This document shows, in pieces, positions 29,873-42,662 of a stretch of DNA of 64,000 bases. Position numbers and translations under genes: made by a program. Numbering within the stretch: the stretch's first letter is position 1; every line of letters begins with the position of its first letter. Origin of the DNA: Sphingopyxis sp. CCNWLW2 (GTDB taxonomy: Bacteria; Pseudomonadota; Alphaproteobacteria; Sphingomonadales; Sphingomonadaceae); NCBI RefSeq assembly GCF_037095755.1, contig NZ_JBAWKJ010000003.1, positions 620,001-684,000 of the forward strand, read 5' to 3'. The notes under the pieces were generated by a model. That model was not told the origin of the DNA, made no database searches, and was given only the letters and a program-made list of their open reading frames with translations.

Positions 29873-30790
29873 GTGACCCTCGAGACTGTCATAAAATCTG
29901 ACGGACCTGCCCGCGACGAGCTGGTGCCGTCCCGGTATGCACTGCAGGTCGGCGACATCGACGTGCTGGTGATCAGCGATGGTGTGTTGCCGATCCCGGC
30001 GCATGTGCTGGCGCACAATGTCGAACCGAATGTCCTCGACACTTGGCTGGACGAGCAGTTCCTGCCGCGCGAAGTGGCCGAGTGGCCGCTGAACGTTCTC
30101 GTTGTACGCAGCGGCGACCAGACGATCCTCGTCGATGCGGGACTGGGCATGGACCCGAACCTCAAGCTGGAAAAGGCCGGACGTTTGGTGCAGCGGCTGG
30201 AAGCGGCCGGGATACCGCTTGAATCGATCACCGACGTGGTGGTGACCCATATGCACATGGATCACATCGGCGGACTGATCATCGACGGTACGCACGAGCG
30301 CATGCGCGCGGATTTGCGCGTTCATGTCGCGGCCGCGGAGGTGGAATTCTGGAAGAACCCCGACTTCTCGCGGACTGCCATGCCAGACGGCTTTCCCGAT
30401 GCGCTGCGCGGCGCAGCGAACCGGTTCATGGCGCAATATGAGAGCCAGATCCAAACCTTCGAGAAGGAAGCCCAGGTAGCGCCGGGCGTGGTCGCGCAGC
30501 TGACTGGAGGCCACACGCCCGGGCATTGCATGGTCCGCGTCGCGTCGGGCGGCGAACAGCTGACCTTCGTCGGCGACGCCATCTTCCAACCCGGCTTTGA
30601 TCAGCCCGGCTGGTATAATGGCTTCGAGCATGATCCCGAAGAATCCGAGCGCGTCCGCATCAATCTGCTGCGCGAATTCGCCGAGACCCGTGAGCCCTTC
30701 GTCGCGACGCACCTGCCGTTTCCGTCGATCTATCATGTGGCGGTTGCAGGCGACGCCTTCCGGGCCGTGCCCGCGGTCTGGGACTATTGA
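29873..30790 (+). CDS. MBL-fold metallohydrolase
   Basis: A protein of 305 residues with a GTG start preceded by AAGGAG. The metal motif VVVTHMHMDHIGG supplies His126, His128, Asp130 and His131. The second-shell His residues are in GGHTPGHC and HLPFPS, and FVGDAIF carries the bridging Asp. This is the standard metallo-beta-lactamase fold, subgroup similar to quorum-quenching lactonases and related hydrolases, with no signal peptide. Substrate specificity cannot be read from sequence. It ends the plus-strand run before a strong hairpin. Confidence 0.9.
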   Translation: MTLETVIKSDGPARDELVPSRYALQVGDIDVLVISDGVLPIPAHVLAHNVEPNVLDTWLDEQFLPREVAEWPLNVLVVRSGDQTILVDAGLGMDPNLKLEKAGRLVQRLEAAGIPLESITDVVVTHMHMDHIGGLIIDGTHERMRADLRVHVAAAEVEFWKNPDFSRTAMPDGFPDALRGAANRFMAQYESQIQTFEKEAQVAPGVVAQLTGGHTPGHCMVRVASGGEQLTFVGDAIFQPGFDQPGWYNGFEHDPEESERVRINLLREFAETREPFVATHLPFPSIYHVAVAGDAFRAVPAVWDY

Positions 30791-30854
30791 CCGCCGACCG
30801 CGCGGAAGCGGCGTAATTTTATAGAGGTCGCCGGCAGATCTCTCTCATAAAGTG

Positions 30855-30887
30855 ACGGCCATGATCCAGATAATGGACCATGGCCGT
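30855..30887 (+). terminator. Hairpin terminator after the MBL-fold gene
   Basis: ACGGCCATG pairs with CATGGCCGT; inside it TCCA pairs with TGGA around a 5-nt loop (GATAA), giving 13 pairs with one mismatch, followed by TTTC. It lies 65 bp past the stop codon, in the gap between this plus-strand run and the convergent minus-strand gene ending at 30995, so it could terminate in both directions. Confidence 0.55.
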
Positions 30888-30994
30888 TTCGTTGTGGCGG
30901 TTTTAGCTTGGGAAGGCGAACAGTGTCGCGTTGCAGGCGATGAGCTTAAAGCCCCCCGACGATCTCCTGATCGGCAGGAGGCAAAGCCGGTCAG

Positions 30995-31948
30995 CTATCT
31001 TGGAAGCGCTATTCCAATATTCTTAAGATGGCCCGGATTCTCTCGCAGTCGTGCCTGGATGTCATGTTCCAATGACCGGCCAGCAAGCCATAGCGCGAGG
31101 TTGCGCACATATTGGCGGATCGATCTCTGCGCATCGACGGAACCGGCAAGCGAATGGCCAGGCTTCTCGCTGACGAACGTGGGACAGCCCATCTCCGGAT
31201 CCCAATTATAGTCGGCGAAATGATGGAAAGTGGACTGCGCGACCGCCGGACCGCCGTTCGCCGACGGCTCGAACGCGACGGCGAGATTGAAATCCTTGCC
31301 GCTCGCCTGGCTCAATCCCGTCGCTATGACGCGCGCCGACGTCTCGCCTTCGGGAACGCCGACCGCGCCCTCGTGCGGATGGGCCGGCAGATAATGCAAC
31401 AAGCCGTCGGCCGCCCACGGATCGCTAAGCAGGATATGCGGCGGATCGGCGATCGTGATCGTCTGAAAATCTCCGTTCGCGCCCGAATGATAGTTCGGCC
31501 ACAGAATATAATCGGTTTCCCGGTCGTCCGGGATATGGCGGCTTGTATCTGGCTCCGGACGGGTGCTGTGGAAAAAATGCGCGTTTCCGACACCGCTCAG
31601 CGTGCAGACCGAATTACCCAGATCCATATGATCGCGCGTCACGAGCAAGCCGCGGCCATTCTCCCTGAAGCGGCTGATCGCCGCGCAGTCCTCGTTGGTC
31701 AGGCCGTCACCGGTATCGACCGCGAAAAGCCAGAGTTCGTCGAAGTCGGATTGGTCGATTTTCGACAGAACCGGATCAGGAGCGCCGGGCGCAGTGCGGT
31801 CCCGGGCGGTCACAGCGCACAACGGCCAACCGTCATCGTCGGTGAGGTCCGACAGATAGTCGCGCAACAGTGAGAAGCGCCCGATATTCCAGTCATCCTC
31901 GATCGACGGGATGGTGGTCTGAAGCAGGATGCGAATGGGGGAGGACAA
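30995..31948 (-). CDS. Uncharacterised protein of about 320 residues
   Basis: The start at 31948 (TTG, with AAAGGA seven bases upstream) gives 317 residues; a TTG at 31969 would give 324. The opening SSPIRILLQTTIPSIEDDWNIGRFSLLRDYL and segments such as FDELWLFAVDTGDGLTNEDCAAISRFRENGRGLLVTRDHMDLG suggest a class I glutamine-amidotransferase-like (ThuA-like) fold: a strand, a helix, then the GRGLLVTRDH elbow. No catalytic Cys-His pair is obvious. I cannot name a family. There is no signal peptide. It lies downstream of the STN-type TonB receptor on the same strand, with a 95-bp gap, so it may share that transcript. Confidence 0.6.
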   Translation of the reverse strand: MSSPIRILLQTTIPSIEDDWNIGRFSLLRDYLSDLTDDDGWPLCAVTARDRTAPGAPDPVLSKIDQSDFDELWLFAVDTGDGLTNEDCAAISRFRENGRGLLVTRDHMDLGNSVCTLSGVGNAHFFHSTRPEPDTSRHIPDDRETDYILWPNYHSGANGDFQTITIADPPHILLSDPWAADGLLHYLPAHPHEGAVGVPEGETSARVIATGLSQASGKDFNLAVAFEPSANGGPAVAQSTFHHFADYNWDPEMGCPTFVSEKPGHSLAGSVDAQRSIRQYVRNLALWLAGRSLEHDIQARLRENPGHLKNIGIALPR

Positions 31949-32064
31949 TGTTTTTCCTTTGGCTGACAAGATTCGTCCAGCCCTAAATTACCCGCATCGG
32001 TTTGCTTATTCAGACCCAAGAATGTGCCAATATGCTGTACCATCCGCATGTCGCCGAAATTCGG

Positions 32065-34419
32065 CTAGCGTCCTTCCATCCTGATGCCGAGGCTGAACCG
32101 GCGGGGCGTTTGCGGAACGAAAAGATCCGATGCGCCCGGTTGCGCGAGCGACCCGAGCGCGAAGCGATTTCCGGCGGCGTTGAAAAGATTGGCGACGCCC
32201 AGCTGGAGTTCGGCGCTGCCAAGCTTCCACGACGCGTCGAGATCGACGTCGGTAAAGCCGCCCTGCCATCGCGCGAGTTCGGGGCCGATGCCCAGTTGTG
32301 ACCGGCCGGTCCGACGTAGCGTCGCCGAAAAGCGATAGGGGTGCTTCGCGTCCGCGGAACTGGCGTATCGGACGGCCAGCCGGGCGTTGATGTCGGGAAT
32401 GTTGGGCAGGCGTCCTTCGGGAACGATGATATGGCTTGGCTTTGTGGTCGTGACGAGTGCTCGGTTCATCGTGATGCCGGCATTCAGTGTAAGTCGTTCG
32501 GACAGGCGCCATTGCGCCGTCGTCTCGACCGTAAACGTCTTCGCATCGCCGATATTCGCGGTCGTAAGATAGCCGGCAGGGTCGATGATATCCGCCTGCA
32601 CGTTGCGCCAGCGACCCACCGACAAGCTGAGCCCTCCCGTCAGCGGCCGGTCGTCGCTTGCAGGGCGGCGGACCGCCACCTCCCACGCGGCATAGCGATC
32701 ACCCGACAGGACAATGAAGCCGGCAGATGATGCCGCTGCGGTCGGAGGGCGATAGCTTGCGGCATAACGGACAAGAAACTGGACGTCGCCAGGCAGCGCC
32801 AGAAGTGCCGACGCGCCGGGAAGGACTTTCCAGCCCTCGTCGTTCCAGTTGAAAAGCGACCCGGAAGAGTTCGCGCCCGATATGTGGAGGCCATGCCCGC
32901 GCCATCGCGCCGCGCGTCCGCCGATCGAGAGGGCGAGGGACCCAATTGCCTTCGACGCTTCACCGAACAGGATATATTCGCGTATCGATGCCGCGGTGTT
33001 CGTTTCGAACGGCGGCTCATCCCGATAGTGCAGCGCGGATGAAAAGCGGGTTCTGCTGTCGACGACCGAGCCGCCGATAAGCCAGCCGCTTCCTCCCGAT
33101 CCCGAGCGGCCGACTCGTATCTCGGCCGAAGCCACGTTCGATATCTCGCGCCGGGTTAGAGCCAGCGTGTCAGGAAGGGGGGCGCTCGCGTCGAAAATAT
33201 CGTGCAGGCGCGTATGCGAACGCGAGAGGTTCGCGGCGATATCGAGCCCGTGTTGCTCTCCGCGGAGCGTGACCGACACCAGCCGGAAACGGTTGGAGTA
33301 AGGCTGTGCAATAGTGGTCGCCCGCGCGAGGCGGTCGAGGCGGCGATCGACATAAGCTGCATCCCGTCCCTCGATATCCTGCCAGACGCCGAGAATATCT
33401 GTGCGCCAAGAGCCGTTAGGCGCGACACCCAGGGAGATTCGACCCCCCGATATGTCGAGCAGATTGCTATTCGTGGCGCCCCGCGTGAGATCGTCGATAT
33501 AGCCGCCTTCGCGCACCCGATAGCCGACGAGACGGACGGCCCCGTCGCTCCACCCGAGTGGCAGATTCAGCATTGCTGCGGCTTCCGTGCCCGGCGTCCC
33601 GCCGTTGATAGCCGACGTGGACAGCGTGGCTTGTAACTGCATGCGGTCGGGATCGGGCCGGTTGGGCTCGATCCGTATGATTCCGCCGAGCGAACCAGCT
33701 CCATAAAGCGTCCCCTGCGGTCCGAGCAGAATTTCGGTACGGGCGATATCATAAAGGCGCAGATCGGGGTCGGGACCCGAATAGTTGAGACGCGCTTCGC
33801 CAAGATATTGCCCGACTGTCGCCTGCGTGCGCCCGCTAAAGCTCGAATCGCCGACTCCCCGCAGGAATAGTTTGTCGCGCCCGGGGCCCAGATGGGTCGA
33901 GCTGAGCGACGTTCCGGCGCGTTCGATCGCTTCGGTGCCGCGAAATTCGGCATGGATCAGGTCGCTCGCGTCGATGGTCTGGACGCTGCCCTGATAATGC
34001 GATCGGCTCGTCTGGCGCTTGCTTGCCGTGACAACGATCTCGGCCTTGGGCAGAGGCGACTGAATTTTCGGCGCGGGAAGGGAGAGCTGCCCCGCGGCGC
34101 GTTGCGGGCGGCCGCGGGGCGCCAGGATAAGGCGGAAATTGGAAGGATCGAGGACCACCACGTCGATGCCAAGGCCTCGTACCATCCTGCGGAGGGCCTG
34201 TTCGGCCGTCATCCGGCCACGGACCTTGCCTATTTTTAAATTGGCGATCGCGGGATCCGCCAGAGCGATGCTCGACCGGGTTTGGGCACCCAGCGCGCGT
34301 AGCCCGGCTTTCAGCGTTCCCGCGCGAATGTCGACCGGCACAGCCTCGCGCGCGTGCGCTGGATTGGCCAGCACGAGGACGGCTCCCGCAGCGACGACAA
34401 TGCCGAAACCATCCCTCAT
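32065..34419 (-). CDS. TonB-dependent receptor with N-terminal STN signalling domain
   Basis: A protein of 784 residues from the ATG at 34419, whose ATGA overlap with the FecR stop makes it the likelier start (an ATG at 34440 also exists). A signal sequence is followed by an STN domain at about residues 28-100 (VDIRAGTLKAGLRALGAQT, KVRGRMTAEQALRRMVRGLGI), a plug starting EIVVTASKRQT and containing LGPQGTLYGAGSLGGII, and a beta-barrel ending RFSLGIRMEGR. The STN domain marks receptors that signal to a FecR anti-sigma factor, and that gene is directly upstream. The ligand is unknown; iron siderophores or other large molecules are typical. Confidence 0.92.
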   Translation of the reverse strand: MRDGFGIVVAAGAVLVLANPAHAREAVPVDIRAGTLKAGLRALGAQTRSSIALADPAIANLKIGKVRGRMTAEQALRRMVRGLGIDVVVLDPSNFRLILAPRGRPQRAAGQLSLPAPKIQSPLPKAEIVVTASKRQTSRSHYQGSVQTIDASDLIHAEFRGTEAIERAGTSLSSTHLGPGRDKLFLRGVGDSSFSGRTQATVGQYLGEARLNYSGPDPDLRLYDIARTEILLGPQGTLYGAGSLGGIIRIEPNRPDPDRMQLQATLSTSAINGGTPGTEAAAMLNLPLGWSDGAVRLVGYRVREGGYIDDLTRGATNSNLLDISGGRISLGVAPNGSWRTDILGVWQDIEGRDAAYVDRRLDRLARATTIAQPYSNRFRLVSVTLRGEQHGLDIAANLSRSHTRLHDIFDASAPLPDTLALTRREISNVASAEIRVGRSGSGGSGWLIGGSVVDSRTRFSSALHYRDEPPFETNTAASIREYILFGEASKAIGSLALSIGGRAARWRGHGLHISGANSSGSLFNWNDEGWKVLPGASALLALPGDVQFLVRYAASYRPPTAAASSAGFIVLSGDRYAAWEVAVRRPASDDRPLTGGLSLSVGRWRNVQADIIDPAGYLTTANIGDAKTFTVETTAQWRLSERLTLNAGITMNRALVTTTKPSHIIVPEGRLPNIPDINARLAVRYASSADAKHPYRFSATLRRTGRSQLGIGPELARWQGGFTDVDLDASWKLGSAELQLGVANLFNAAGNRFALGSLAQPGASDLFVPQTPRRFSLGIRMEGR

Positions 34420-35351
34420 TTTCCCGGCGAAAGTGTCCACCCATCACCGTCGCGGCGCACGTCGATTCCGAGCAGTGGTCCCAACCGCGCCATGCTGCCT
34501 TCAACGTCAAGGTCGAGCTGGATGGTCGCGCTGATCCGCAGATTCGCCGCTGCCGGTGAAGCTGAAACAGGGATACCAAGCTCGCGTGAAAGATCGGCTG
34601 CGACAGTGTGTAGTGGTGCATTGTCGTAATCGAGCCTGGGAGTCGCCCATCGGCCGATCGCGTCCGTCGCGACCGAACTGCGAACTATTCGATCGCCTGT
34701 TGCAACAAGTCGCTCGCCCGGCCGCAGCTCGGCTCGACTTTTCCCGCTCTGAAATGCGATGGCCCCTTCAGCGACCGCGACTTCGGTCCTATCGCCTTGC
34801 CGGTTGACGATGAAACGCGTTCCCAAATTTTGGACCATGCCGCCGTTAAAGGTGACGCGAAACCGCGTGCGCGGATCGTGAGCGACGTCGAATAGCGCCT
34901 CGCCGGTGACGAGTTCGGCCGAGCGAGGCAAGTCGCGGTCGAGTCGCATCCGGGTCGCGCCGTTCAGGACGATCTGGCTGCCGTCGGCGAGCGATATATG
35001 TTTTCGCTGCCCTTCCCGGGTCACGACCTCATACGCCCCGTCGGGGCGGAGCGTGAAAAAGGCGAGAACGGCAAGTGCGGCCGCGGCGCCAGACGCGAAC
35101 CAGCCGGTCCGGCGCCATCGCTTCGGCAGGTCTTCGTCCGCATCGGCATCGGACACGAATAGCGGCGGATCGGCCGCCAGATCGTCGCCCAATGCAGCGT
35201 CGAGCGCCGCGAGCCGCTGGTAGAGAGCTGCGTGCGATACATCGGCTTCGAGCCAGTCGGTGAATGCTTCCCAATCGTCGAACAGGGGATCGCGCTGGCG
35301 GGCGAGCCAGTCGATTGCGGCGTTCCGCGAACCGGGCCCATGTTCAGCCAT
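34416..35351 (-). CDS. FecR-family anti-sigma / signal transducer
   Basis: A protein of 311 residues from the ATG at 35351, where AAGG lies nine bases upstream; an ATG at 35360 is possible. The N-terminal cytoplasmic part has AIDWLARQRDPLFDDWEAFTDWLEAD, the FecR anti-sigma signature. A single membrane helix (GWFASGAAAALAVLAFFTL) and a periplasmic FecR domain follow (YEVVTREGQRKHISLADGSQIVLNGATRM, then LVTGEALFDVAHD). The C-terminus is an STN-like DUF4974 segment. It inhibits or activates the ECF sigma factor encoded just upstream when the receptor is occupied. It overlaps the sigma gene by 8 bp. Confidence 0.93.
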   Translation of the reverse strand: MAEHGPGSRNAAIDWLARQRDPLFDDWEAFTDWLEADVSHAALYQRLAALDAALGDDLAADPPLFVSDADADEDLPKRWRRTGWFASGAAAALAVLAFFTLRPDGAYEVVTREGQRKHISLADGSQIVLNGATRMRLDRDLPRSAELVTGEALFDVAHDPRTRFRVTFNGGMVQNLGTRFIVNRQGDRTEVAVAEGAIAFQSGKSRAELRPGERLVATGDRIVRSSVATDAIGRWATPRLDYDNAPLHTVAADLSRELGIPVSASPAAANLRISATIQLDLDVEGSMARLGPLLGIDVRRDGDGWTLSPGK

Positions 35352-35889
35352 TGTCTTCATCCTTCAACGCTGCAATCGCCCGATAGGCGCGTTGAATATC
35401 CTTTTCCACCGCGCTCAGGCTGATGTGATAGCGTTCGGCAATGACGCGCTGGCTCAAGCCATCGACCCGAAAAAGAAAAAAGATTTCCTGCACGCGGGTA
35501 CCGCATGCCGCGAGACGGGTTCGGGCGCGGGCGACTTCCTCCTTTGCGGCTAGGTCTACCTCGGCGGCGCTCGCGACGCCGACCAGATGCGCCTCTCCCC
35601 AGGCTTCGTCGCGTGCCATATTTCGGGCGTCGGCCCGATAATCATTGAGCATTAGGTTGTTCGCTGCACGAAACAGATAGCTGAGCGGGTCCATGATCGG
35701 TCCGGTCGGCTTCGACGCGATCCGAACCCAGAGCTCCTGTACAAGGTCTTCGGCACGAGCCCCGGCACCGCGAGCGCGCAGGAAACGCAGCAGCCGATCG
35801 CGGTGCGCCAGATAGACGGCTTCGAGACCCGTGGGAAGCGCGGCGGCTGCGTTGATTATTGTCTGCTCGGTCACGGCTTGCGCGCCCAT
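35344..35889 (-). CDS. ECF RNA polymerase sigma factor, FecI-type
   Basis: A protein of 181 residues with region 2 (YLAHRDRLLRFLRARGAGARAEDLVQELWVRI, then PLSYLFRAANNLMLNDYRA) and region 4 (TRVQEIFFLFRVDGLSQRVIAERYHISLSAVEKDIQRAYRAI), the layout of FecI-like sigma factors. It sits directly after the TIGR03032 gene (one base between) and overlaps FecR by 8 bp, so sigma, FecR and receptor form a signal cascade. It presumably directs transcription of its own operon or of the receptor. Confidence 0.93.
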   Translation of the reverse strand: MGAQAVTEQTIINAAAALPTGLEAVYLAHRDRLLRFLRARGAGARAEDLVQELWVRIASKPTGPIMDPLSYLFRAANNLMLNDYRADARNMARDEAWGEAHLVGVASAAEVDLAAKEEVARARTRLAACGTRVQEIFFLFRVDGLSQRVIAERYHISLSAVEKDIQRAYRAIAALKDEDNG

Positions 35890-35890
35890 C

Positions 35891-36958
35891 TCAGATCGGT
35901 TCGCCGAATGCGCGAATGGCGAGGACGGGCAGTGGATCGAAGGTGAGCATCCGGTCCGCTTGCGCGCTGCGCGGGGCGACGGCCGAGGGACAGAGAATTT
36001 CCGGCATCACGGCAATGTCGAAAAGCTCGCTCTGTGGCCCGTGAAAACGCAGCCATTCTATAATGTTCCCGCTCACAAGCTCGATCACCATCACCCCGCA
36101 CCATGGGGCGGCGCGGCCTATGCTGATACGCTCGTCGATTGGCAAGCCCGTGAATGATTGCTCGCGTGGTTTCGATAGAGTTACGAGCGCATGGCCGTTG
36201 TGGATCGCGAGGCCGCGCAGGAAACCGGGGCAGAAAGCGACGTCCCGGCGCTCGCCGGTGTCGAGGTTCAGACGGACGATCTGGCCGCGTCCGCTCTCGA
36301 GGAAAAAAAGGTCGCGTCCGACCAGCCGCGGCGAATGCGGCATCGATAGCCCGTCGGCTATGGTCGCGCCCGTCGCGACATCGATAATCAGCCCGCCGTC
36401 GCTGCGCTGATCGCGCCAGCCGCCCACGATGTCGCTGCGCCCCGCCGCGGTGACGAAAACGGGCTCACCATCGACGCCGAAGGCTACGCCGTTAAGGTGG
36501 CAACGATCCTCGGGGGTAAGACGGCTGATGAACTCGGGTTTCCAGAGCGGACGGAAACTGTGCCGGATGCTGGGTGTGGCGAGACAGGAGTAGGCGGTGT
36601 TTACGAAGACGATCTGCCCGCCGCGGTGCACACCCATTTCGTGGATATCGAGGTCGCCGGTAATCTGCGCATTGCGGGGAACGAAGACTGCATCATGGCC
36701 TGCGTCGTCCTGTTCGCCCGGCGGCAGGATATTTTCCAGCCGCCATATCTCACGCTGGCCGGCGAGATAGAGCCGCCCGGGGCGCCAGGCGAGCCCCATG
36801 GCACGGTCGAAGGCGGAGCGGCTGACTGCCACTGCGCCTTCGGAATCCGACCCCACCAGAATCAAAAGCCCTGTCTGATAGGATGTGCAAGCGAAGCTGA
36901 GCCGGTTGTCTCGCAGCCAACCGGCCAGCCCGCGCGATGCGGATATGTCGTCGGTCAA
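35891..36958 (-). CDS. TIGR03032 family protein
   Basis: A protein of 355 residues with a TTG start preceded by GAGG. The N-terminus GLAGWLRDNRLSFACTSYQTGLLILVGSD matches the TIGR03032 opening (WLxxxxxSLAxTTYQxGKLxLxG). FDRAMGLAW, REIWRLENILPPGEQDDAGHDAVFVPRNAQITGDLDIHEMGV and the repeated GxDLFFLESGRGQIVRL blade-like segments suggest a beta-propeller. TIGR03032 has no known function. It has no signal peptide. Placed between an autotransporter and an ECF sigma gene, it is an odd neighbour for both; a role in maturation or regulation of the surface protein is possible. Confidence 0.85.
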   Translation of the reverse strand: MTDDISASRGLAGWLRDNRLSFACTSYQTGLLILVGSDSEGAVAVSRSAFDRAMGLAWRPGRLYLAGQREIWRLENILPPGEQDDAGHDAVFVPRNAQITGDLDIHEMGVHRGGQIVFVNTAYSCLATPSIRHSFRPLWKPEFISRLTPEDRCHLNGVAFGVDGEPVFVTAAGRSDIVGGWRDQRSDGGLIIDVATGATIADGLSMPHSPRLVGRDLFFLESGRGQIVRLNLDTGERRDVAFCPGFLRGLAIHNGHALVTLSKPREQSFTGLPIDERISIGRAAPWCGVMVIELVSGNIIEWLRFHGPQSELFDIAVMPEILCPSAVAPRSAQADRMLTFDPLPVLAIRAFGEPI

Positions 36959-36986
36959 ATCCGAATCCTCGATCGCATGCGCGTCA

Positions 36987-39900
36987 TCAGAAACCGATCC
37001 GGAAACCGACGCGACCGGTCAGCCCGTCATAGCCGCTGCCGATTTCCCCCTGGCCCTCCGCGTAAGCTTCGAAGCCGTCGGCGGTGCGATAGGACAGACC
37101 AACACGTCCTTCGCCGAATGTTCCGAGGCGGTCGCCCTCGATCCGCTGGCTCTCGCCGGCGGTCACGGTCAGGCCATAATCGTCGCCGAAGATCCGAACC
37201 GCGTTGCCGCTGGCGTAGAGGGTCAACGCGCCGCCGTTCGCGAACTGGGTCGTGCCGCCGAACCGGGCACCGATGCGCGCCTTGACCTGCTTCGACTTTT
37301 CAAACTCAAGCCGCTGGGTCGCGGTGCCGAGGCTGTCGATGTCGGTGGCCGACCAGGCCAGGCCGACGGTCGGTTCGACGAACATGCCCGTGCTGCCGAA
37401 ACGCATCCCGACTTCGCCGTCGACGCCCCAGGTCGAGCCGCCGATGTCCTGCGTCGATGCGAAAGCCGAGGTCTCGAGTTCGACGTCGTGATGGTCATAT
37501 TTGACGAGCAGGTTCGCAAAGAGCCGCTCGCCGACATAATTTGCATAGATGCCGACATTGGCGGTCGACAGCTCGATCCGCTCGCCGCTGTCGCGATAGC
37601 GCAGCTTCGACGTGGCGTAACCGCCGGTCAGGCCGAAACGCAGCGCGCCGGTTTCGCCGCCGCTTCCGAACAGGTCGTAGCCGATCTGGCCGCCCCGCAG
37701 CGTCTGACGATAGTCGAGGTCGATCGCATCGTCGCCGTCGGCCGTGGACCAGTCGCGCGTCGCGCGGCCGCCCTGCAGTGAGCCCCACAGGCGTGAAACC
37801 GCACCGAGATCGCCCATCAGCGCGTCGCGGCGCGACAGGCCCTGCGTGCGCCACAAGTCGGCGCTCGCGTCCCACATATGATCGGCGGCCCGCAGCGCGC
37901 CGAGCTGGCGGAATGCCCCGGCGCCTGCGCGGCCGACAAGGCTGTAGCTTCCGCTCGCCGCATCATAGGTCAGCGCATAACGGACGAGGCCGATATCGCG
38001 CGTCGCCTCGGCGAGCGTGAAGGTGTCGGCAGCCGATTTGCCTTCGACTTCGACAAGCAGGACGCCCTTGGCCCCCGTAATCTTTGCCTCGGTGGGATCG
38101 GCGGAGAGTGCGATAGCGGTCGACCCCGATGCCGAACCTTCGATCACGAGGCGGTCCGATGCGCGGCCGGCGCCGTCGATGTCGAGATGCACTACCGCAT
38201 CGTCCTCGCCGACATAGTCGCCGGCGATCGTCAGCACGTCGCCCGTCTTCTCGTTCCCGAGATCGATCACGCCGCTGTTCTCGAACCGCTCGAGGCCGTC
38301 GAGGCGGAGGTCGCCGCCCGCGCGAACGACGCCGCTGTTGCGCAGCACGTCGGTGCCGCTGCCGAAATCGCTATCTTTGGTGACGATGAAGACCCCGGCA
38401 TTGTCGAACAGATCGTCTCCGCTGGAAAAGCGGATTCCGCCGGTAATCGTGCCTCGGTTTTCGAGCGTGATCGTTCCATTCTCGACCCGAACTGCAAAGC
38501 CGTCGACTGCCTCGATCGTGCCGCGGTTGATGACGTGCGCGTCGCCGGCGAAGGTCGGGAAATTTGCCGGGGGGGCTGCAAAGGCGGCAATGCCGATCCC
38601 CCCGCCCGCCGTTTCGTCGCCGGGATTGGGGCAGGGGTTCGGCGATCCGTCGCCCAGATCGGGCAGTGCGCAGCGCGCGCCGACCGCGTCGATTACCAGA
38701 CCGTCCTGACCGCCGAAAACGTGCGCGCTTGCGCCAATGTCGATTGAAACATTTTTGCCCCGAGCCACCACCGCGCTGGCGATTTGCGAGCGGATGTTGC
38801 CGCGCAGATCGAGTGCGACGTCCTCGATCATATCGGTATCGATCGCCGGTCCCGACACGGCGCTGACATTGCCCGCGAGAATAGAGGCGTTGCCGAGGCC
38901 GCGCGCGCTGATGCCCATCGCCCCATCGCCGCTGACGGCGACATTGGCGGCGCGGATGTCGATGTCGCCCCCCAGGGAAACGGGGTTATCCGGAGATGGT
39001 CCCGAGTAGAAGGAGACGAAGCGGGTGCGGGCCTGAATTCCGTGCGAACCTGCGCCCTCGGTCACGATATTCTGCGCTTCGATCGAAACCTCGCCGTCCT
39101 CGCCGATTGCGCGAATCCCGATCGCCCTGTCGCCGGAGGTCGCGACGTCGCCGATCGCCCGGATTACGGAGGCCGCGTAGCGACTGGTGATCCAGAACGC
39201 GTCCGCATTGGCCCCTTCGGTCGATATCTTTCCGCTCGTTAGAACAAGATTCTCGCCGCCCGTCGTCGAACTCAATATGCCTGCCGACCAGTCACCCTTT
39301 GTCATCAAGGCGCCGAGCACGCGAATATCGTTTTCTTCCCCCGTCGCCATGATGGCGTAGGACGTGTCGCCGGCCGTAGTGACCTCGCCGGCAATGATGC
39401 TCGCCTTGCCTTTCAGGGCCGAAACTGCGATCGCGTGCGCAACTTGGCCATCGGTGGAGATGTCCGTGACGCGAACATTGGCATTACCCGCGGTAGATGC
39501 CGCCTCGGCGCCCCGCGCGAAATCGCCTTTGACATGAATCGAACCTGCCTCGGCAATTGCGTTGCCGAATCCCGATATGGCAACGATACCGGCGCCATTC
39601 TCGGCGGTGAGCGATCCGACTTTTACGAACGCGTTCCCGTCATTAGACGCCGCTACGATACCGCCGCTGCCTTCACCCTTGAACGTTGCGGTTCCCACCG
39701 AAACATAGGCCGTTCCGGCAGCCGAGGCGTTGACGCCGCTGCTCCCCGTCCCTTTGATGTCGAGGTCGCCTATCTCGATCATTCCGACACCCTGACTGTT
39801 CAGGACAATACCGCTGTTGTAATTGCCGGACAGATTGATCCGGCCGACCGAGATCGCCGTCACGCCATGGATCGATTGCCCTTCATATTCGATGCCGCTG

Positions 39901-40565
39901 GTGACATTGGCGCCCCAGATATAGTCGCCTTGGCCCTCGATCGTATCGACGACGATATTCGTATCGCCGCCCGAAACGACCTTGATCCCGTCCGATGCAA
40001 AACCGTTGGTCGAGATAGTTCCGGCATTGATGGATACGTTGCCGGGACCACCCTGTTCGACGACGATACCGTTCGAGTGATCGCCGACCGTATGGACCGA
40101 CCCGACGTTGATCGAGGTCGATCCGAACGGGGTCGCGGCGGTAATTCCCGCAGCCACTTCGCCGGGAGTGACAACTTCGGTCGAGACGCTCGCAAGGTCG
40201 ATCACGATGTCGCCGTCGGCTTCGACGGCGGCTCCGGTCGCGTCGCGGGTGGAGATCGACGTCCCGGAGCCGTTGATGGCGACTGTGCCGCCCGTCCCGA
40301 ACCCGGAAATGGCGATGATGCCGGCTTCGCCGACGGCAGGGGTCAATACCAGACCATCCTCAAGATCCAGGATGATATTCCCTGGTGCGTCATATCGGAT
40401 GCCCTCGGGATATGCCGCTCCGTCCGACGGGCAGAAGACTTGCCCATCGATCAACGGTCCGCAGGCGTTTTGCTGTTGGGCCGCGGCCGAATTCGCCCAC
40501 AGCAGCGTCGCAAGTGCCCCGATGCTGGCGGTCGCAAGATTGCGGCGTGTGCGGCTGGAAATCAT
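36987..40565 (-). CDS. Autotransporter (type Va) with beta-helical passenger and C-terminal barrel
   Basis: A protein of 1192 residues. The signal peptide MISSRTRRNLATASIGALATLLWANSAAAQ is followed by about 850 residues of Gly/Ala/Ser/Asn-rich repeats of the type GxAxxGIxAxxxGxxxVxVGxITTxG, typical of a right-handed beta-helix. The barrel (about residues 890-1192) has the usual start WDASADLWRTQGLSRRDALMGDL and the end VGFRIGF with terminal Phe. It is a surface-exposed or secreted protein, probably an adhesin. It heads the minus-strand module with TIGR03032, ECF sigma, FecR and a TonB receptor. A TTCAGC-GCGA-GCTGAA inverted repeat (40585-40600) lies 20 bp upstream. Confidence 0.9.
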   Translation of the reverse strand: MISSRTRRNLATASIGALATLLWANSAAAQQQNACGPLIDGQVFCPSDGAAYPEGIRYDAPGNIILDLEDGLVLTPAVGEAGIIAISGFGTGGTVAINGSGTSISTRDATGAAVEADGDIVIDLASVSTEVVTPGEVAAGITAATPFGSTSINVGSVHTVGDHSNGIVVEQGGPGNVSINAGTISTNGFASDGIKVVSGGDTNIVVDTIEGQGDYIWGANVTSGIEYEGQSIHGVTAISVGRINLSGNYNSGIVLNSQGVGMIEIGDLDIKGTGSSGVNASAAGTAYVSVGTATFKGEGSGGIVAASNDGNAFVKVGSLTAENGAGIVAISGFGNAIAEAGSIHVKGDFARGAEAASTAGNANVRVTDISTDGQVAHAIAVSALKGKASIIAGEVTTAGDTSYAIMATGEENDIRVLGALMTKGDWSAGILSSTTGGENLVLTSGKISTEGANADAFWITSRYAASVIRAIGDVATSGDRAIGIRAIGEDGEVSIEAQNIVTEGAGSHGIQARTRFVSFYSGPSPDNPVSLGGDIDIRAANVAVSGDGAMGISARGLGNASILAGNVSAVSGPAIDTDMIEDVALDLRGNIRSQIASAVVARGKNVSIDIGASAHVFGGQDGLVIDAVGARCALPDLGDGSPNPCPNPGDETAGGGIGIAAFAAPPANFPTFAGDAHVINRGTIEAVDGFAVRVENGTITLENRGTITGGIRFSSGDDLFDNAGVFIVTKDSDFGSGTDVLRNSGVVRAGGDLRLDGLERFENSGVIDLGNEKTGDVLTIAGDYVGEDDAVVHLDIDGAGRASDRLVIEGSASGSTAIALSADPTEAKITGAKGVLLVEVEGKSAADTFTLAEATRDIGLVRYALTYDAASGSYSLVGRAGAGAFRQLGALRAADHMWDASADLWRTQGLSRRDALMGDLGAVSRLWGSLQGGRATRDWSTADGDDAIDLDYRQTLRGGQIGYDLFGSGGETGALRFGLTGGYATSKLRYRDSGERIELSTANVGIYANYVGERLFANLLVKYDHHDVELETSAFASTQDIGGSTWGVDGEVGMRFGSTGMFVEPTVGLAWSATDIDSLGTATQRLEFEKSKQVKARIGARFGGTTQFANGGALTLYASGNAVRIFGDDYGLTVTAGESQRIEGDRLGTFGEGRVGLSYRTADGFEAYAEGQGEIGSGYDGLTGRVGFRIGF

Positions 40566-40874
40566 CTCTCATCCCTTTCTGTATTTCAGCGCGAGCTGAA
40601 GGTTCGAAAGGGAGACACCGCCGCTTGTGCGCACCCGCATATGAGCTGAAATATTTTTCGGCGGCGGTCGAAGGTTGACGCTCTGCCGGGGTGCGATGCA
40701 CCGCGCCGTCTATAAGCATGCGACCAAAGGATAGGTCGGTTCGATCCTTGGCACGATGCACAAGCGGGTCTTCAAAACGCAATATGCACATGTCCGGTCC
40801 TCGCGTCGGGGATTTGGATATTGCGGTAACGTCGGCCAGTCAGGGGATATCATATGGCGATTTTGGAAGACTTC
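40566..40874. other. Divergent promoter region of about 310 bp
   Basis: No gene is seen. The region carries the promoters of the autotransporter (minus strand) and the Tat-exported hydrolase (plus strand). An inverted repeat TTCAGC-N4-GCTGAA lies at 40585-40600, and GAGCTGAA recurs near 40642, so a dimeric regulator could bind here. No ECF-type promoter consensus can be named with certainty. Confidence 0.4.
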
Positions 40875-41825
40875 ATGCTCAACCGCCGGTCATTTGTCGC
40901 CGCTGGTGGCGCGGTGGCGATCGCGAGCAGTCTCAACTGGCCGAGCTCGGCCCTCGGCGCACCTCTCCCTTCCGCAAATCAAGGAGCACATCCGATGAAT
41001 TTCATTACCGCAGCCGAAGGCGTGCAGATTTTCTACAAGGATTGGGGGCCGCGCGACGCGCAGCCGCTCGTCTTCCATCACGGCTGGCCGCTGACCGCCG
41101 ACGAATGGGACAACCAGCTCCTCTTCTTCCTGGCGCAAGGATACCGCGTGATCGCGCACGACCGGCGCGGCCATGGCCGCTCGACCCAGACCGATACCGG
41201 AAACGACATGGACACCTATGCCGCCGATGTCGCGGCGCTGGTTGCGGCACTGGACCTTAAGGGCGCGGTGCATATCGGCCATTCGACCGGCGGCGGCGAA
41301 GCCGCGCATTATGCTGCGCGCGCCAAACCGGGCACGGTTTCGAAACTGGTCCTCGTCGGCGCCGTGCCGCCGGTGATGGTCAAGAAGGCGAGCAACCCGG
41401 GTGGTCTGCCCATCGAGGTGTTCGACGGGTTCCGCAAGGCGCTCGCCGCCGATCGCTCGCAATTCTACATCGATGTCGCCTCGGGCCCCTTCTATGGCTT
41501 CAACCGCGACGGCGCGAAAGTCAGCAAGGGTCTGATTCAGAACTGGTGGCGTCAGGGTATGGTCGGCAGTGCCAAGGCGCATTACGACTGCATCAAGGCC
41601 TTCTCCGAAACCGACTTCACCGATGATCTGAAGAAGATCGAGGTGCCGACGCTCGTCATGCACGGGACCGACGACCAGGTGGTTCCCTATGCGGATTCGG
41701 CGCCGCTTTCCGTCAAGCTGCTCTCGAAGGGCGTGCTCAAAACCTACGAGGGCTATCCGCACGGCATGGCGGCGACGAATGCCGACGAAATCAACAAGGA
41801 CATGCTGGCCTTCATTCGCGGGTAG
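40875..41825 (+). CDS. Tat-exported cofactor-free haloperoxidase-like hydrolase
   Basis: A protein of 316 residues from the ATG at 40875, with GGAAG upstream (an ATG at 40854 is possible). The signal MLNRRSFVAAGGAVAIASSL has the twin-arginine motif. The mature part starts FITAAEGVQIFYKDWGPRDAQPLVFHHGWPL, typical of non-haem chloroperoxidases (perhydrolases), with nucleophile Ser137 in GHSTGGGE, Asp in HGTDDQVVP and His in YPHGMAAT. These enzymes make peracids from carboxylic acids and peroxide in vitro. Export by Tat is unusual for the family. A strong hairpin follows the stop. Confidence 0.9.
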   Translation: MLNRRSFVAAGGAVAIASSLNWPSSALGAPLPSANQGAHPMNFITAAEGVQIFYKDWGPRDAQPLVFHHGWPLTADEWDNQLLFFLAQGYRVIAHDRRGHGRSTQTDTGNDMDTYAADVAALVAALDLKGAVHIGHSTGGGEAAHYAARAKPGTVSKLVLVGAVPPVMVKKASNPGGLPIEVFDGFRKALAADRSQFYIDVASGPFYGFNRDGAKVSKGLIQNWWRQGMVGSAKAHYDCIKAFSETDFTDDLKKIEVPTLVMHGTDDQVVPYADSAPLSVKLLSKGVLKTYEGYPHGMAATNADEINKDMLAFIRG

Positions 41826-41830
41826 CGGCC

Positions 41831-41863
41831 CGGCCGGGGCGGGCAGCGTTGCCGCCCCGGCCG
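41831..41863 (+). terminator. GC-rich 12-bp hairpin after the haloperoxidase-like gene
   Basis: CGGCCGGGGCGG (41831-41842) pairs perfectly with CCGCCCCGGCCG (41852-41863) over a 9-nt loop, starting 5 bp past the stop codon. No T-run follows, so termination may be incomplete, but the stem is very stable and could also protect the 3' end of the mRNA. Confidence 0.5.
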
Positions 41864-41963
41864 AACCCCACTCTTCCAAGATCGAACGCCCGTCCAGTTC
41901 GTTCTCCATCGAAAACCTGCGGCCTTGGCCGCTACATTGGATGAAACGCCTGTCGGAGGACAT

Positions 41964-42662
41964 ATGGGACAGTTTATTGATATCGATCTCGAAGGTGGGT
42001 CGATGCGGGCATTCGTCGAACATCCGGCATCCGGAAGCGGCCCGGCCGTGGTGGTTCTGCATGAGGTTTTCGGCGTCAACGACGACATGCGCGCGAGCTG
42101 TGTGGAACTCGCGCGGCAGGGCTTCGTGGCCGTGGTTCCCGAACTCTTCTGGCGACAGGAACGCGGCGTGGAGATGTCCCATTGGACACCCGCCGAAGTG
42201 GATAAAGCAATTGCGCTTTATGAAGCTTACGACCGAGATCAGGGTGCAAAGGACATCGCTCGCGTCATGCAATTCGCGTCGGCGCTTTCGAGCACCACCG
42301 GAAAGGTCGGCCTTTTAGGCTATTGTCTCGGAGGTCTTATGGCTTTTCTGGTAAGCGCGCGCCATGGCGCGGACGCCGCCGTCGCCTATTATCCGGGGGC
42401 CGCTGAAAATTATGTCTCGGAAACACGCAACATCCGGACGCCCCTGATGATTCACCTCGGTGAGGAGGATGAATATATTTCCAAAGACGCGCAGAGAGCG
42501 ATCAGGGAAGCGGTGGCCGAGAACCCCGCGGTGATGGTTCACAGCTATGCTGGCTGCGCCCACGCCTTCGCCCGGCACACGGGCACGCGCTATGACGCCG
42601 GCGCCGCTGCACTGGCCAACGGGCGAACCTGGCAGTTCCTGAAGACCAATTTGATCGGCTAG
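41964..42662 (+). CDS. Dienelactone hydrolase family protein
   Basis: A protein of 232 residues from the ATG at 41964 with CGGAGGA upstream. The fold follows dienelactone hydrolase: VVVLHEVFGVNDDMRASC (Glu36 in the active-site loop), nucleophile Cys121 in GYCLGG, and the Asp/His pair in GEEDEYI and AGCAHAFAR. A Cys-Asp-His triad is intact. In ring-cleavage pathways DLH opens dienelactones; here its neighbours are stress and hydrolase genes, so the substrate is uncertain. It stands 102 bp before the catalase. Confidence 0.9.
   Translation: MGQFIDIDLEGGSMRAFVEHPASGSGPAVVVLHEVFGVNDDMRASCVELARQGFVAVVPELFWRQERGVEMSHWTPAEVDKAIALYEAYDRDQGAKDIARVMQFASALSSTTGKVGLLGYCLGGLMAFLVSARHGADAAVAYYPGAAENYVSETRNIRTPLMIHLGEEDEYISKDAQRAIREAVAENPAVMVHSYAGCAHAFARHTGTRYDAGAAALANGRTWQFLKTNLIG

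Follow-up and report, generated by a model that had tools for sequence, protein, structure and literature searches.

Can an autotransporter (AT) be the dedicated output of a cell-surface signalling (CSS) cascade? The question is raised by an array of five minus-strand genes located in a window of 64,000 nucleotides from Sphingopyxis sp. CCNWLW2 (contig NZ_JBAWKJ010000003.1, 620,001 to 684,000; coordinates below are positions in this window unless a locus is named), which encode, in this order, an AT, a TIGR03032 protein, an extracytoplasmic function (ECF) sigma factor, a FecR-type anti-sigma factor and a TonB-dependent receptor (TBDT). FecIR signalling is known mainly from iron uptake, while here one clade of it is found tied to surface ATs. 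Comparison with other genome stretches or loci, labelled by L numbers (L039, L157, etc.), suggests that the array is a CSS unit dedicated to switching on an AT, a reading to which we assign a probability of roughly 0.8; the gene set, its recurrence, the signalling clade, the linkage of the clade to ATs and the promoter motif ahead of them are results of computation.

Composition of the Gene Array

The leading gene (36987 to 40565) encodes a type Va AT of 1192 amino acids, in which a signal peptide (recognized by eye), a repetitive passenger, an autochaperone (AC_1, E 3.9e-10) and a C-terminal barrel ending in GFRIGF (TIGR01414, E 1.5e-38, residues 773-1192) are contained in one protein. No Pfam domain was found in its passenger, presumably beta-helical, and comparison of the AT by sequence with solved structures gave none at E<=0.01. 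After a gap of 28 bp follows the 355-amino-acid TIGR03032/DUF4915 protein (35891 to 36958, TTG start), with 385.9 bits against TIGR03032 for a curated cut-off of 251.5, a match to DUF4915 as well, and no signal peptide apparent by eye. A single base pair separates it from the ECF sigma factor (35344 to 35889, 181 amino acids, TIGR02937), assigned also by its position in trees, whose regions 2 and 4 (sigma70_r2, PF04542; sigma70_r4_2, PF08281) score over cut-off. The sigma gene overlaps by 8 bp that of the FecR-type anti-sigma factor (34416 to 35351, ATG at 35351, 311 amino acids), likewise assigned by trees and by its FecR domain (PF04773, E 2e-19) and N-terminal DUF4880 domain (PF16220, E 3.6e-6), which in turn overlaps by 4 bp (ATGA) the TBDT gene (32065 to 34419, ATG at 34419). 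The latter codes for 784 amino acids with Plug and TonB-barrel domains and an N-terminal signalling (STN-like) domain. This receptor domain, characteristic of FecIR-type CSS, was recognized through a profile built from 13 TBDT kin, which finds, among solved structures, the signalling domains of HasR and FecA (2m5j, 1zzv, 2d1u).

The preliminary description of the locus had given these genes, their order, strand, gaps and overlaps correctly to the base. Within the scanned segment 30800-41200, sigma-70 matches and terminator-like sites both stayed at chance level, the minus strand of the array showing no sigma-70-like promoter in its interior, and no Rfam match was obtained in 30000-42000.

Recurrence of the Gene Set and Autotransporter Linkage of Its Clade

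Ten loci in eight genomes, window included, contain all or the greater part of the set, some of these loci being cut or damaged. Since it recurs in other loci, the set is more than a chance grouping, and the absence of any co-occurrence of AT and TIGR03032 with FecIR genes elsewhere, on which the preliminary description would have given up its idea, was not what the genomes displayed. Order A (AT-TIGR03032-ECF-FecR-TBDT) is present in the window, L157, L162 and L039 (S. desiccabilis), order B (ECF-FecR-TBDT-AT-TIGR03032) in L057, L159, L160, L158 and L161, the sequence stretches of the last two starting inside the gene set, and order C (TIGR03032-ECF-FecR-TBDT with a divergent AT) in L070. A paralogous unit of the same genome, L225 (= L171), shows the arrangement AT-ECF-FecR-TBDT without TIGR03032, indicating that the AT is the usual companion of the signalling genes and TIGR03032 an optional one. 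L177 similarly combines a window-type AT with ECF, FecR and TBDT genes and no TIGR03032, and in L162 the TIGR03032 gene is broken (about residues 62-253 missing) next to an open AT that is 90% identical. The placement of TIGR03032 within the cascade by the preliminary description is thus not supported, as the other genes are kept in all these loci. The decayed copy of L162 (9057-9591) adjoins, besides the AT, the signalling genes, and a complete TIGR03032 is retained in the second cluster of the same genome (L161).

In trees of the ECF, FecR and TBDT proteins, loci of orders A, B and C and the own-genome paralogue L171/L225 group together, apart from the other FecIR systems of the genome (seven in the ECF and FecR trees, and three in the TBDT tree, the four most distant receptors being left out); some trees lack L158 and L161, both cut. 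At a broad cut of E<=1e-45, 134 of the 298 Sphingomonadaceae genomes and 51 of the 96 genera gave matches to a FecR search profile, built from ten loci that are all AT-linked and hence a biased choice; the clade is common in this large environmental family. Among 337 genomes of the class, three match at E<=1e-60, namely the window's own, one family member and L247 outside the family.

Forty clade loci, one per genome and all of at least 269 bits, were then sampled from the broad-cut list, 20 from its top (second loci per genome and some short contigs skipped) and 20 from lower down, to about 1e-80. An AT is present in 32 of these 40 loci and in 0 of 17 other FecR loci, seven from the own genome and ten from four others, the own-genome stretches spanning 9-12 kb versus up to 20 kb for clade loci. 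By the clade profile, 14 of the 17 controls are clearly FecR-type; among the ten from other genomes, L218 and L224 score weakly and L223 gives no match. ATs of type AT1 make up 31 of the 32, the remaining one being that of L177, with a window-type barrel; Pfam confirmed six of the nine AT1 members tested, and the member in L195 is a piece of 322 amino acids. Two AT types are therefore found beside the clade, their two barrel profiles matching separate proteins. A quick tree, with L070 and L172 on long branches, requires three changes of the AT2 label, and one origin of AT2 may also be possible.

A Putative Promoter Motif ahead of the Autotransporter

An ECF-type promoter before the target gene, as expected for CSS, is represented in the window by a sequence motif: the putative promoter GCGG-N17-TGTC (40614 to 40638, minus strand) lies 48 nt upstream of the ATG of the AT. 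Its relaxed form, RMGG-N17-YGTY, occurs upstream of the AT in all 37 usable loci, versus 0-7 of 37 when the same boxes are placed at other spacings (10-16, 18-24) and a mean of 1.5 (maximum 7) in mononucleotide shuffles. The strict form, RMGGBT-N15-YGTC, is found in 29 of 37, with 0-4 at other spacings and a mean of 0.12 (maximum 2) in dinucleotide shuffles. As matched control, ATs of TIGR03032 loci lacking FecIR genes carry the motif in one of 18 cases; the starts of these control ATs had been taken from the longest open reading frame (ORF) rather than from a chosen signal peptide, hence they were rescanned with 180 coding bases added, which gave 2 of 18. Within the last 110 nt, the motif is present for 36 of 37 clade ATs and for none of the 18 control ATs. 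The motif search was confined to intergenic sequence, a first one having settled on the end of the receptor coding sequence.

The 37 regions derive from 42 AT upstream regions, from which L177, L178, L182, L191 and L202 were taken out for an uncertain start codon, L195 (the AT piece) and L171 (same gene as L225) having been left out earlier; for L039, L057 and L159 the start or the region was picked by hand. A later check showed the motif in L177, L178, L191, L195 and L202, as well as matches in L182, whose start is uncertain.

Across the own genome, the strict form ending in YGTCT has 21 sites (72 for the backward control pattern), of which 18 lie inside ORFs and three are intergenic, the latter being those of the window AT, the L225 AT and L244. 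The boxes of the paralogous own-genome units differ (GCGGGT/TGTC and AAGGCT/CGTC), from which it would follow that each receptor controls its own AT only. In L070, two outward-facing sites are observed, one before the AT and the other before the TIGR03032-led operon. At the ECF/FecR junction of L175-L214, the promoter-like matches are in part sigma coding sequence and in part perhaps another promoter of ECF type. The sharpness of the motif makes the link between the clade and ATs directly testable.

A conserved hairpin (40569 to 40615, minus strand) pairs CCCTTTC with the AT Shine-Dalgarno sequence GAAAGGG, with folding z values of -3.2 to -3.5 in the window, L162 and L157, and no signal in L039. 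Its 5' arm overlaps or just follows the putative -10 box, so that only read-through transcripts might have the full stem; by hiding the AT Shine-Dalgarno sequence, the hairpin is perhaps a guard against leaky expression.

The TIGR03032 Protein: Distribution, Predicted Fold and Partners

TIGR03032 is present in 37 of the 298 family genomes (34 over cut-off) and in 11 of 80 genus genomes, the window's included, its closest relative being found in Sphingopyxis fribergensis (91% identity); the family is broad, 7,915 of the 8,000 candidates that were scored reaching E<=0.001. The predicted structure (predicted local distance difference test score, pLDDT, of 93.8) resembles beta-propellers, probably with six blades according to the best fold matches, while comparison by sequence with solved structures gave nothing under E 0.3. 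Across 84 TIGR03032 sequences 37 residues are invariant, many of them polar, and on the predicted fold the conserved polar residues appear to be placed like an active site.

Regarding partners, 15 of 39 TIGR03032 stretches have an adjacent AT and only two (L057, L070) the FecIR set. A GT41 glycosyltransferase is next to or fused with TIGR03032 in two cyanobacteria (L041, L042) and adjoins it in L133, L135, L137 and L138, three of these four also having RTX-rich giants; fusions with GT2 and GNAT domains occur in other bacteria. These GT41 and RTX counts are lower bounds, as Pfam was run on only some of the neighbours in the sets of 39 and 20 TIGR03032 stretches. TIGR03032 may thus belong to a general module for large exported proteins. 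GT41 as its obligatory partner was rejected for the sphingomonad family, being found in 1 of 32 TIGR03032-positive and 1 of 32 TIGR03032-negative sphingomonad genomes, chosen by hand. A literature search of limited scope returned no paper naming TIGR03032 or DUF4915; this orphan family now gains a predicted fold and a consistent context, that of large exported repeat proteins. In the array, TIGR03032 is probably an optional cytosolic accessory, and as a guess it could act on the AT precursor before export.

Proposed Mechanism and Weighing of Alternatives

By analogy with known FecIR-type CSS systems, the TBDT would bind an outside ligand, whereupon its STN domain would act on FecR in the periplasm, FecR would release or activate the ECF sigma factor, and the latter would read RMGG-N17-YGTY and transcribe the AT. 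As the AT is first in the window array, transcription from its promoter would extend to TIGR03032 and the three signalling genes, generating positive feedback. The suggestion of the preliminary description that a CSS cascade controls the AT has gained strong comparative support from recurrence, AT linkage and the contrast in motif frequency between clade and control ATs.

Several observations weigh against an AT-dedicated unit or narrow its reach. No AT is seen in eight of the 40 loci sampled from the clade (L183, L190, L194, L208-L211 and L213), L247, the sole match outside the family, has none in its 20 kb, and control locus L220 passes the broad cut (202.6 bits), yet also shows none. As judged from these sequences, the AT link holds for the tight group (at least 269 bits), about 94 of 298 genomes (best E 3e-79 or less, counted by eye), the wider matches of 40 or so genomes falling outside the sample. 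The motif consensus is a fitted one, because the pattern was first spotted by eye in the same sequences, and the other spacings, the shuffled sequences and the matched ATs served as controls on this fitted form. When ending in YGTC, the relaxed motif also occurs within 200 nt upstream of FecR in 24 of 40 loci, of ECF in 6 of 40 and of TBDT in 3 of 40, the frequent matches before FecR arising in part because the last codons of the sigma factor spell the motif. The third intergenic strict site of the own genome (L244 1501-1526; C3:55378-55403) has catalase-like and TetR-like neighbours, as identified by eye, and is without a clear target. Finally, the window TBDT alone reaches 13.9 bits for STN against a Pfam cut-off of 28.4, and 4 of 13 single kin reach E<=0.01; the label of STN-type receptor in the preliminary description therefore stands by the profile of 13 kin compared with HasR and FecA, and not by the single protein.

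Considering the function of the exported protein, the passenger may be an adhesin, or a ligand catcher like HxuA. If nutrient capture rather than adhesion were its purpose, the passenger would bind or free the ligand of the receptor outside, and the TBDT would import and report it, all under the same sigma control. This is possible, though we would not favour it. In its support, AT and TBDT genes are companions within one CSS clade, a likeness to siderophore receptors (pesticin receptor, E 4.2e-29) is seen for the TBDT group, and the HxuA-HxuB-HxuC operon (PMC5422565, in the portion available) provides a precedent, HxuA being thought to free heme for TonB-dependent HxuC. However, the two sorts of AT beside the receptor clade are unlike even in their barrels, as compared by profiles, which would be expected of an exchangeable output more than of a partner specific to one ligand. 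That the grouping merely reflects an unrelated AT-TIGR03032 pair beside an ordinary iron-uptake FecIR-TBDT operon is highly improbable despite the abundance of such pairs without FecIR genes among the TIGR03032 stretches, given the ten loci in three orders, the link of the clade to ATs and the motif before the AT.

Regarding TIGR03032, it is conceivable, if rather unlikely, that it assists a glycosyltransferase in glycosylating the passenger of the AT within the cytoplasm, much as HMW1C serves HMW1. The neighbouring or fused GT41 enzymes, the RTX-rich giants, the GT2 and GNAT fusions and the often polar invariant residues all agree with such a role, but the window's genome gives no GT41 match, GT41 is equally rare in sphingomonads with and without TIGR03032, the predicted fold is a propeller and not a glycosyltransferase, and open ATs persist where TIGR03032 is missing (L177) or broken (L162).

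Returning to an AT-dedicated CSS unit, a wider generalization is put forward tentatively, with less than even confidence: a Sphingomonadaceae-wide CSS class that switches ATs on, with (i) one receptor/anti-sigma/sigma clade having its own promoter code, RMGG-N17-YGTY, (ii) outputs that can replace one another (AT1, or AT2 whether or not TIGR03032 is present), (iii) each receptor serving its own AT, and (iv) TIGR03032 as a new propeller enzyme of the cytosol, by which large exported repeat proteins are modified prior to their export.

Flanking Genes

A gene ending in PAVWDY flanks order-A as well as order-B clusters (window 29873-30790, plus strand; L162 4084-5001; L158 9532-10461); its product looks, by eye, like a hydrolase of metallo-beta-lactamase fold, and a shared landing site is possible. 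On the minus strand, 95 bp downstream of the TBDT gene, an ORF of 324 amino acids (30995-31969) with no Pfam or NCBIfam match might be a sixth gene. A different-clade ECF-FecR-TBDT set (L169, own genome C3:684001-693000) starts ~0.6 kb beyond the right end of the window.

Comparison with Known Systems

Adjacent genes for an ECF sigma factor, a FecR anti-sigma factor and a TBDT with a signalling domain are likewise found in CSS systems of the FecI-FecR-FecA type (ferric citrate, FoxA/FoxR, PupB/PupR). According to the portions available of PMC9249621 and PMC11637429, which make no mention of autotransporters, the usual output of such systems is the transporter itself, whereas here an AT preceded by an ECF-type motif is the usual neighbour. 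The available part of PMC11637429 further makes the case that, ahead of induction, the signalling domain is already in place on the anti-sigma factor.

The nearest known system is PUMA3 of P. aeruginosa, in which the FecIR-like pair VreI/VreR drives the large secreted protein PdtA (PMC7035377, PMC5422565, as far as available), so that the statement in the preliminary description that no counterpart had been described was too strong. Nonetheless, in the accessible portions of these sources VreA has no receptor barrel, unlike the full TBDT of the window, and activation does not require it, and PUMA3 is under phosphate/PhoB control. Moreover, PdtA/PdtB is a two-partner secretion system, while the window AT has passenger and barrel in one polypeptide and not a TpsA/TpsB pair.

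Adhesin glycosylation by HMW1C and by the enzymes AAH and TibC offers another likeness, a companion gene standing beside a large adhesin and cytoplasmic modification preceding export. HMW1C appears in the available text of PMC5422565, AIDA-I and AAH in titles that it cites. HMW1C-like systems are, however, based on a glycosyltransferase, and TIGR03032 is a predicted propeller in a genome without GT41. H. influenzae HxuA-HxuB-HxuC similarly unites a secreted surface protein and a TBDT in one operon, but it is a two-partner secretion system for which the available part of PMC5422565 names no sigma/anti-sigma pair. A limited search of the open literature found no paper linking FecIR systems to autotransporters as a class. 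CSS control of a large secreted protein is already known, and the comparison suggests that, within the literature searched, it is the AT-linked class that appears to be new.

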